64,000 bases of DNA from Tabrizicola sp. (GTDB lineage Bacteria > Pseudomonadota > Alphaproteobacteria > Rhodobacterales > Rhodobacteraceae), in NCBI RefSeq assembly GCF_030373185.1, contig NZ_JAUCZH010000004.1:62001-126000 (forward strand). Reading direction: 5' to 3'. How positions within the stretch are numbered: position 1 is the first letter of the stretch; every line of letters starts with the position of its first letter. The notes under the pieces were generated by a model that made no database searches, was not told the DNA's origin, and worked only from the letters and a program-made list of their open reading frames with translations. Shown here piece after piece: positions 20,149-23,044 of the stretch. Position numbers and translations under genes: made by a program.

Positions 20149-20832
20149 ATGTTGAGACCCCTTGTCCTTGCCGCGTTGTTGTCGGCCCACATCCTGATGG
20201 CACCTGCGCAGGCCGAGACCGATGTGTCAGATGCCATCGTTACCTCCGGACGCCTGACAGATGCCGATTTCTATCGTCTTGCCACCTGCGGCGCACGCCC
20301 TGCGGGCCAATGCCTTGGTCCGGCCCTGCGATGGGACAAGGCACGTCTGACCGTGCGTCTGGCCCGGGGCAATGACCCGATCCCACCCGGCTTCGAAGCC
20401 CGTCTGATGCCCTCGATCCGCAATGCGATCAATGAGGTGAACGGGGTTGGCGCCGGAATCAAGCTGGCCTTCACCAGAGCTTCCAATGCCGACATCACCA
20501 TTCGCCCAACCAATCTCGCCGAAGGCAGCGAGATGCCCGACAGGCCGGGATTTTCGGGTCCAGGCATCATGGGCGTCGGCTACATGACGGTCTGGTCAGA
20601 CAGGACCAACGCCATTCTGGAAGCGGTGATCCTGATTTCCACCACGATCAGCGAGACGGATCTGACCTCGGTCATGCTGGAGGAAGTCACCCAGTCACTT
20701 GGATTCCTGCACGACATCGACAACGAGGCCTACGAAGGGGTCTCGATCCTGTCTCAAACCTCGAACGAGACGACGCAATTGACCGGGCAGGATGCCACGA
20801 TCCTGCGGATGCACTATCCCCCGAAACCGTAA
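20149..20832 (+). CDS. DUF2927 domain protein, exported
   Basis: N-terminal signal peptide ending [35 protein letters not shown]. Confidence 0.78.
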
Positions 20833-20845
20833 TCGGACGCAGAAA

Positions 20846-21385
20846 ATGACCCCGAAAAAGACCGTCAAGGACTATATCCGCACCATCGTCGATTTCCCGC
20901 ATGAGGGGATCCTCTTTCGCGACGTGACGACCCTGTTTGCTGATCCGCGCGGGTTCCGGATGTCCGTGGACCAGTTGCTTGCGCCCTATGCCGGGATGCG
21001 GATCGACAAGGTTGTCGGGCTGGAGGCGCGCGGATTCATCCTTGGCGGCGCGGTGGCGCATCAGTTGTCCACCGGCTTTGTGCCGATCCGCAAGAAGGGC
21101 AAGCTGCCGGGTCAGACGATTTCTCAAGCCTACAAGCTGGAATACGGCGAAGCGGTGGTCGAGGTGCATGAAGACGCGATGACAGCGGGCGAAAAGGTGC
21201 TGTTAGTCGATGACCTTCTGGCCACCGGCGGCACCGCCGAAGCAGGCATCCGCCTGATCGAGCGGCTGGGGGCCGAGGTGGTGGGCTGCGCCTTCGTGGT
21301 GGACCTGCCCGACCTTGGCGGGCGCAAGAAGCTGGAAGCGATGGGGATGGATGTCCACGCGCTGTGCGATTTCGCGGGGCTTTGA
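20846..21385 (+). CDS. apt: Adenine phosphoribosyltransferase
   Basis: [32 protein letters not shown] motif [16 protein letters not shown]. Confidence 0.95.
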
Positions 21386-21538
21386 CCGCCCGGCGCGGCA
21401 CGCATTCGGAGTTCTCGAAAAACTCTTCGTCGGCCCTTCAAACGCTCCGCAGCGATTTCTGCTGAAAAATTTCGTGCGATTGCGCCGAAACCAGCCCCGT
21501 TAACCCTGTAGAAAGAGAATCACCCTAGACCTGTGCTT

Positions 21539-21626
21539 GTCGGGCCTACCCAGCCCGACCGCGCCGCTACCCACGGCGTGATCCACACACCCCCAAAGCA
21601 CCCCGTCGCAGGTTCCTGCGGCGGGG
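21539..21626 (+). ncRNA. Candidate small RNA: two abutting hairpins with identical CUACCCA loops plus a terminator-like hairpin (strand not proven)
   Basis: GTCGGGC-CTACCCA-GCCCGAC (21539-21559), CGCGCCG-CTACCCA-CGGCGTG (21560-21580, one G-U), CCCCGTCGCAGG-TT-CCTGCGGCGGGG (21601-21626). Confidence 0.5.
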
Positions 21627-21634
21627 TAATTGCT

Positions 21635-23044
21635 TCAGTCCAGCACCGCGCCGGGGTTCATGATGCCATACGGGTCAAGCGCGGCCTTGATCGCCCGCAT
21701 CGCGGCCAGCTTGCCGGGGTCGGCGTAGCGCTTCAGGTCCGCCGTCTTCAGCCGCCCCACCCCATGTTCCGCCGCGACCGACCCGCCAAGCAGATGCACC
21801 AGATCATGTACCGCTTCCTTCACCGCGCCGCGTTTGGCGTCATGAATGGCACGGGATTGGCCTTTTGCCGGAAAGACGTTCCAATGCAGGTTGCCGTCGC
21901 CCAGATGGCCAAAACAATTCACCCGGAAATCACCCAACGGCGCCAGCAAGCCCGGCGCGCGGGCGATGAATTCAGGGATGGCCGACAAGGGCAGAGAGAT
22001 GTCGTGGCTTGAAACCGCGCCGATCCGACGGTTGGCCTGGGGTACCATCTCGCGCAGGTTCCAAAGTGCCGCGGCTTGCGCCTTGGAGGTTGCGATCAAG
22101 CCATCTGTCACCAGCCGGGCACTGTTGGCAGCATCGTAAAGCCCGGCCATGGTTTCTTCAGGGTCCATGCCACGGGACAGGCCAAGTTCGATCAGCACGA
22201 TCCATTCGGGCAGCGGATCGAAAGGCGCGCGGATGTCGGGCATCGTCTCGGCCAGAAAGTCAAAGCCCGTCCGGTGCATCAGTTCAAAGCTGGACACCAT
22301 TCCGGCGGCATGGGTCTGCGCCAGACCCAACAGCTCCAGCGCCGCAGCGGGCGACGGGACAACAAGCATCGCAACCACCGCAGCGGCCGGGATCGGATGC
22401 AGCCGAAGGCTGGCGGCGGTGATCACCCCAAGCGTCCCTTCGGACCCGATCAGAAGATGGCGCAGATCATAGCCCGCATTGTCTTTGCGAAGCCTCGTCA
22501 GGCCGTTGAACACCGTCCCATCGGGCAAGACCGCCTCCAGCCCCAGACAAAGGTCGCGCGCATTGCCATAGCGCAAGACCGCCGTGCCACCGGCATTCGC
22601 GGCCAGATTACCGCCGATCCGGCATGACCCTTCAGACGCCAGCGACAGCGGGAACAGCCGGTCGATCCGTGCCGCTTCGGCCTGCACATCGGCAAGGATC
22701 ATCCCCGCCTCCACCACCAAGGCGTTCTCTGACGGATAAGCGCCCCGCAAGGCCGTCATCCGTTCCAGCGACAGCAAAAGCGGCGCCGGGCCGTCTGTCA
22801 TGATCTGGCCACCGACAAGCCCGGTGCCGCCGCCCCAAGGCACCACCCCGACCCGGGCCGCGTGACAGGCGCGGATAATCGCGGCGATCTCTGCCGTTGT
22901 CTGTGGCCGGGCAAGAATGCCGGCCCGACCCTGCCAGCGTCCGCGGGGTTCTTCCAGATGACCGGGGTCTGGGGCGTTCAGACACCCATCAGGCAAAACC
23001 GACGCCAACTCGGCGACAAAAGCTGCGTCACAGGGGTTGAGCAT
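21635..23044 (-). CDS. FAD-binding oxidase, GlcD/D-lactate dehydrogenase-like
   Basis: GVVPWGGGTGLVGGQI; GNLAANAGGTAVLRYGNARDLCLGLEAVLPDG; C-terminal AAEHGVGRLK. Confidence 0.88.
   Translation of the reverse strand: MLNPCDAAFVAELASVLPDGCLNAPDPGHLEEPRGRWQGRAGILARPQTTAEIAAIIRACHAARVGVVPWGGGTGLVGGQIMTDGPAPLLLSLERMTALRGAYPSENALVVEAGMILADVQAEAARIDRLFPLSLASEGSCRIGGNLAANAGGTAVLRYGNARDLCLGLEAVLPDGTVFNGLTRLRKDNAGYDLRHLLIGSEGTLGVITAASLRLHPIPAAAVVAMLVVPSPAAALELLGLAQTHAAGMVSSFELMHRTGFDFLAETMPDIRAPFDPLPEWIVLIELGLSRGMDPEETMAGLYDAANSARLVTDGLIATSKAQAAALWNLREMVPQANRRIGAVSSHDISLPLSAIPEFIARAPGLLAPLGDFRVNCFGHLGDGNLHWNVFPAKGQSRAIHDAKRGAVKEAVHDLVHLLGGSVAAEHGVGRLKTADLKRYADPGKLAAMRAIKAALDPYGIMNPGAVLD

Follow-up and report, generated by a model that had tools for sequence, protein, structure and literature searches.

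The window analysed here is a 64,000-nt stretch of Tabrizicola DNA. A series of hairpins lies in it between apt and a convergent gene for a FAD-linked oxidase; the coordinates of all features are listed in Table 1. Twin hairpins at 21539-21580, a linker and a third hairpin had been described in a first-pass annotation made from the sequence alone, and the sequence matches that description at the exact coordinates. For the third hairpin the location was correct, but the proposed 2-nt TT loop cannot close, and the hairpin folds with a 4-nt loop instead. For the 101-nt region, a minimum free energy of -51.4 kcal/mol was calculated (z = -5.4 versus 200 dinucleotide shuffles), and all three hairpins were present in the predicted fold.

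The motif CTACCCA by itself is ordinary in the window (3 found versus 2.2 expected). A pair of near-adjacent 7-bp hairpins sharing the same 7-nt loop was detected a single time in the 64 kb, with both strands considered, and in none of 60 dinucleotide-Markov shuffles; the combination is not a product of chance. The twin pattern is also a single occurrence in the 3.6-Mb genome, and its named matches elsewhere were mostly Tabrizicola or close 'Rhodobacter sp.' records. The terminator-like hairpin is GC-rich and comprises 9-13 bp in nearly all homologues. The T-tract that follows it is weak, with TAATTG in the window and ATGTTT or TAACTT in relatives. A scan detected neither a canonical sigma-70 promoter (-35/-10) nor a U-rich terminator. 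In two Tabrizicola loci the last hairpin deviates: it is disrupted in L029 and missing in L031, where the end of the FAD-oxidase gene abuts. Hairpins 1 and 2 are intact in both, and the loci may be truly truncated or reflect an assembly effect.

Table 1. Features at the apt-linked locus, in window coordinates
Feature	Position	Strand	Remarks
apt, adenine phosphoribosyltransferase	20846..21385	+	Pfam PF00156; precedes the sRNA across genera
CtrA-box-like TTAA-CCCTGTA-GAAA (TTAA-N7-KWAA)	21500..21514	+	5' base at about -36 to -38 relative to the predicted start
GAATC, CcrM-type GANTC methylation site	21517..21521	+	between the -35 and -10 positions; starts at about -19
-10-like element CCTAGAC	21524..21530	+	TA nearly invariant in aligned column counts
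Predicted sRNA transcript, about 95 nt	21536..21629	+	start placed by the -10 element, end by the terminator
Hairpin 1, GTCGGGC-CTACCCA-GCCCGAC	21539..21559	+	loop CUACCCA 21546-21552; 7 pairs
Hairpin 2, CGCGCCG-CTACCCA-CGGCGTG	21560..21580	+	loop CUACCCA 21567-21573; 7 pairs, one G-U
Linker AUCCACACACCCCCAAAGCA, C-rich, single-stranded, 20 nt	21581..21600	+	mostly unpaired in the predicted fold
Terminator-like hairpin CCCCGTCGCAGG-TT-CCTGCGGCGGGG	21601..21626	+	99.4% paired; short imperfect U-tract after it
FAD-linked oxidase gene, convergent	21635..23044	-	Pfam PF02913, PF01565; conserved neighbour

The surroundings of the locus are more variable. In some Tabrizicola genomes (e.g. at L020 and L021) the interval from apt to the sRNA promoter contains a near-perfect palindrome of the type CCGATTTCTTCGAAGAAATCGG; it is degenerate in the window and might be the apt terminator. 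A gene for a DUF2927 protein (window 20149-20832) sits between mtnP and apt. In several relatives the similarity of this protein is down to 30-45%, and in many of the loci examined no copy was detected; the gene looks fast-evolving or optional within an otherwise conserved cluster.

Conserved block, strand and promoter elements

When 61 genomes were searched at the DNA level, 29 of the 31 other genomes of the genus had the region, and the two Tabrizicola genomes that lack it are 80% and 70% complete. Most of the matches start at query positions 116-121 (window 21495-21500), and many stop at query positions 247-250 (21626-21629). In 27 aligned genomes, identity was 0.15-0.60 before position 21500, 0.66-1.0 over 21500-21629 and 0.31-0.38 thereafter; for the linker it was 0.90-1.0 within Tabrizicola. 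The edges are abrupt, with the TTAACC element at one side and the end of the last hairpin at the other. Because the identity profile is sharply bounded at 21500 and 21629, the conserved unit, as far as the alignment defines it, is a block of about 130 bp (approximately 21500-21629) that includes the upstream promoter region.

The hairpins are conserved as structures. In 28 Tabrizicola sequences, 99.3% of the pair cells were standard, and in six pairs both partners change; the closing pair of loop 1, for example, occurs as G-C, C-G or U-A. Three of seven pairs are altered on both sides in hairpin 1 (99.5% of cells paired) and also in hairpin 2 (99.0%). The covariation value was 0.190; shuffled alignments gave 0.110 (0/500) and slid structures no more than 0.049. 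Almost all of the 28 sequences have CUACCCA in both loops. The first-pass annotation had suggested a search for compensatory stem changes with invariant loops, and both were found in these 28 sequences. A lack of conservation of the loops in homologous regions, which it had named as speaking against the proposal, did not occur, as the block is kept in 29/31 other Tabrizicola genomes.

The strand could be assigned from the base pairs. Read as the + strand, the alignment has 721 standard pairs among 726 cells, including 74 G-U pairs, versus 648 of 726 when the sequences are complemented. The RNA is therefore read from the + strand, and a - strand reading was ruled out by these counts. The match of the covariance model over the locus spans 21535-21632 (cmsearch, 114.5 bits), and a partial - strand match was obtained at 21601-21631.

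Upstream of the hairpins, alignment yielded the consensus TTAACC-N5-(T/G)(T/A)AA, followed after 1-2 nt or slightly more by GANTC and, after a further 3-4 nt, by CTA. This arrangement precedes nearly all copies of the sRNA, and the CtrA-box-like site is the only one in the 64-kb window. The homologues are mutually related and cross-species counts are not independent; read in this way, 23 of 32 non-Tabrizicola homologues have at least 7/8 matches to TTAA-N-TTAA at a spacer of 7, versus 1-8 of 32 at the other spacers (3 to 12 tested) and a mean of 0.94 (maximum 4) in shuffles. In Tabrizicola the second half-site is mostly GAAA, not TTAA. Nine of the 28 Tabrizicola boxes reach 7/8 at spacer 7, and all 28 have at least 6/8 matches. 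GANTC is present in 28/28 Tabrizicola and 28/32 other-genus homologues (56/60; shuffle mean 4.3, maximum 8). Its N base differs among genera and is A, C or T (GACTC in L035 and L183, GATTC in L181).

Where CtrA activates promoters in Caulobacter, its full motif TTAA-N7-TTAA is positioned near -35, and GANTC placed between -10 and -35 marks a distinct activation-time class (PMC4287350). GcrA is thought to stimulate sigma-70 where the promoter has an adjacent methylation site (PMC7987155). With the predicted start at about 21536, the first base of the box is at about -36 and that of GANTC at about -19, which is the Caulobacter geometry. ctrA and gcrA are encoded in 9/9 Tabrizicola genomes tested. 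The promoter belongs to another type than canonical sigma-70, and its elements make it likely that CtrA and CcrM control the sRNA gene.

A related arrangement was observed at ctrA itself. About 25-60 nt upstream of this gene, Tabrizicola genomes carry a strongly conserved sequence of the type GTAAC...TTAACCATTG...GTTAACGATG (L135-L143), which shares the TTAACC word and the KTAA-N7-TTAA arrangement and is consistent with CtrA autoregulation.

The RNA could also lack a promoter of its own and be cut from the apt 3' UTR, or the hairpins could stabilise the end of the apt transcript. The block begins about 115 nt (115-150 nt) after apt on the same strand, the sequence between them has no unusual fold that could end apt transcription (z = +1.1), so that read-through is possible, and 3' UTR-derived sRNAs exist in R. 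sphaeroides (PMC8625941). However, the promoter-like block directly upstream is conserved across genera and the spacer between apt and the block is not, and we regard such an origin as improbable. Because the conserved block starts at the promoter-like element and the spacer of about 115 nt is unconserved, apt read-through as the only source of the RNA is likewise unlikely.

Loop motifs across the family and target searches

Two covariance models were searched across the Rhodobacteraceae, R1 representing the Tabrizicola RNA and R2 the first distant matches of R1. The search, which had been proposed in the first-pass annotation, recovered homologues, and in 25 further genera these have an evident GCUGCUUGCA-type core. 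In 24 of the 25, apt and/or the FAD-oxidase gene adjoins, and this synteny is independent support because covariance models carry no protein information. The prevalence of 34-35 in 397 family genomes is a rough value, as a few rejected matches are counted in and strict filters miss weak ones. One genome with a family member, G106, is presumably R. sphaeroides 2.4.1; its homologue lies in the apt/FAD-oxidase intergenic region on the - strand of contig C4 (428330-428417), with a 5' end predicted just past GAATCGTCCTA and a 3' end predicted at the GCCCCGCCGG hairpin. Judged from these matches, the Tabrizicola sRNA is the local form of a family found at the same place in many Rhodobacteraceae.

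Several candidates were rejected. Weak model matches without synteny or core (L040, L042, L043, L045-L049, L064, L065 and L067) were classified as terminator-only. Pattern matches in metagenome-assembled genomes labelled Actinomycetes, Bifidobacterium and 'bacterium' (L072, L102 and L080) had no model match; the pattern match in one labelled Proteobacteria (L083) was also matched by the model. Distant blastn searches of plasmid and phage collections yielded no match.

The loops change between genera. Outside Tabrizicola, loop 1 is of the YACCC type in near relatives and GUGA, GCAA or others elsewhere. Loop 2 is CUGCUUGCAACA at the place where Tabrizicola has the second CUACCCA, and the second element of the other genera reads GCUGCUUGCAACA(C)ACGUGACCCA. 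Hairpin 2 of Tabrizicola retains the flanks GCUGCU...CGUGACCCAC, but ACCCA replaces UGCAA, so that both loops become CUACCCA. In two other genera (L180 and L184) the core GCUGCUUGCA occurs twice in tandem. From these patterns we infer that loop modules may have been duplicated or swapped on a fixed scaffold. The first-pass annotation took the loop to be the functional part, a view that has to be refined: the loops are nearly invariant in Tabrizicola, but CUACCCA is a feature of this genus in loop 2 and of near relatives in loop 1, and the wider family keeps a different loop-2 motif, GCUGCUUGCA.

At the level of the individual loci, GCTGCTTGCA is doubled on the - strand of L180 (offsets 512 and 548) and of L184 (412 and 446). 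This doubling in an sRNA of the apt-linked type parallels the doubled CTACCCA of Tabrizicola.

Searches for targets gave negative results. In 11 Tabrizicola genomes, a search for a second locus with twin UGGGUAG sites returned only the sRNA's own complement. The 5' regions of ctrA and gcrA showed no consistent complementarity to the loops or the linker, and in 14 of 15 gene/genome pairs their duplex energies did not exceed those obtained with shuffled targets. In 14 genomes that carry the family, 95 contexts of exact 10-mer complements to the core GCUGCUUGCA were inspected, and no 5' region recurred among them; the recurrences were the sRNA itself or, in 2-3 genomes, sites within coding sequences. 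Genuine target sites frequently contain mismatches, so these three limited searches are weak evidence against base-pairing. Exposed C-rich loops and a C-rich linker are the usual shape of an mRNA-pairing sRNA, and we give loop base-pairing, as predicted from this architecture, a somewhat better than even chance.

As no mRNA target was found, the RNA might alternatively be a decoy in the manner of CsrB/RsmZ, in which identical loops dock and titrate an RNA-binding protein. A pair of short hairpins whose stems differ and covary around one shared, invariant loop would fit this role. However, loop 2 is wholly different outside Tabrizicola and loop 1 is variable across the family, which would be unusual for the site of a conserved protein, and the loops contain no GGA motif for CsrA. 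A decoy is slightly less probable still than an origin from apt. Far less credible is that the block acts as DNA, i.e. as a CtrA/CcrM element joined to a two-way terminator between convergent genes, with incidental RNA hairpins. The genes do converge, and the last hairpin might act on either strand, as the partial - strand match indicates, but stem covariation, G-U pairs on the + strand and invariant loops are the signature of an RNA, and a terminator alone needs neither hairpins 1 and 2 nor the linker.

Comparison with known RNAs and proposed function

The Rfam 15 covariance models gave no match over the locus, either at the gathering thresholds or at E <= 1. Kinship with the cuckoo/CcsR anti-Shine-Dalgarno RNAs (R. 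sphaeroides CcsR1-4), which the first-pass annotation had considered, has a negligible probability: both are made of short hairpins with repeated C-rich loop motifs, here two plus a terminator, and occur in Rhodobacteraceae, but cuckoo/CcsR RNAs have an anti-Shine-Dalgarno loop (CCUCCUCCC-like), tandem copies with ccaF1 (DUF1127) and an RpoHI/RpoHII promoter, whereas the predicted transcript in the window contains no CCUCC, the neighbours in nearly all genomes are apt and the FAD oxidase instead of DUF1127 (CIN1 locus), and the gene is single-copy, has no Rfam match and carries a CtrA-like promoter signature.

Closer parallels in design are found in other orders. The promoter of CcnA of Caulobacter crescentus likewise contains a predicted CtrA site, and this sRNA is proposed to bind G-rich 5' UTR sites through a C-rich loop; it differs in that it lies at the replication origin and its CCCC loop pairs with GGGG in the ctrA and gcrA 5' UTRs (PMC8959179), whereas the RNA described here lies beside apt and has CUACCCA loops without ctrA/gcrA complementarity. 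EcpR1 of Sinorhizobium meliloti is likewise about 100 nt long, with two stem-loops, one strongly conserved loop and broad conservation inside one alphaproteobacterial order, but it is located downstream of divK-pleD, has the loop UCCGCCGCAUCU, is controlled by the stringent response and stress, and targets gcrA and dnaA (PMC4414408). The apt-linked sRNA thus appears most similar to CcnA or EcpR1 in design, and differs in location and, as tested, in targets. StsR (RSs0827) of R. sphaeroides, from the same bacterial family, is an orphan sRNA acting in trans, as is predicted here too. It is set apart by its description: it is 72 nt long and RpoHI/RpoHII-controlled (PMC8307010), versus a predicted length of about 95 nt and a CtrA-like promoter for the apt-linked sRNA.

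In the literature checked on the R. sphaeroides RNAs StsR, CcsR, SorX, SorY, PcrZ, UpsM and Uds, no sRNA at apt was found, and the motifs described in structured-RNA surveys that refer to Rhodobacterales are different ones. Cell-cycle sRNAs have been reported for Caulobacter (CcnA) and the Rhizobiales (EcpR1, GspR), and no report was found for Rhodobacterales. As far as could be checked, the family is apparently uncatalogued, and an entry in a supplement or subscription paper is possible. By its loop, neighbours and copy number it is, on the sequence evidence, not cuckoo/CcsR but a new family within a known kind of sRNA.

The proposal of an undescribed sRNA with a terminator has thus gained support from the conserved block, the covariation and the lack of an Rfam match, and the feature is very probably an sRNA gene on the + strand. 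The conserved promoter block, covarying hairpins, linker, terminator-like hairpin, strand and synteny can all be recognized at the DNA level. The explanation that we favour as a whole, and consider reasonably likely, is an autonomous intergenic gene for a trans-acting sRNA of about 95 nt that would be controlled by CtrA and CcrM-GcrA and would pair via its loops and linker.

We hypothesize that CtrA, bound to the box over the -35 position, would switch the gene on at a particular stage of the cell cycle, and that CcrM and GcrA, via the GANTC site between -35 and -10, would join in this stage-specific switching. The RNA would then work in trans, with its loops and C-rich linker pairing with G-rich mRNA sites of the UGGGUAG type; the target motif would be UGGGUAG in Tabrizicola and UGCAAGCAGC in the other genera. 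In Tabrizicola, loop 2 would have been rewritten to the CUACCCA of loop 1, giving two copies of one seed, while the wider family would pair a variable loop 1 with the conserved GCUGCUUGCA loop 2.

In Rhodobacterales, CtrA is tied to motility, quorum sensing and the production of gene-transfer agents. That the family is a Rhodobacteraceae cell-cycle sRNA, switched by CtrA and CcrM/GcrA methylation, whose modular seeds are swapped or duplicated and whose target set is thereby rewired while promoter, terminator and locus stay fixed, is a tentative proposal with somewhat less than an even chance. If it is true, lineages would rewire targets via their loop motifs, with two copies of CUACCCA in Tabrizicola and two of GCUGCUUGCA in L180 and L184. 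The family offers a defined locus, promoter and seed motifs and probably has a copy in R. sphaeroides, a species amenable to genetics; it is a testable candidate for an RNA arm controlling the cell cycle or motility. It would also be a natural experiment in which the seeds of an sRNA are replaced or duplicated while its gene keeps its place.
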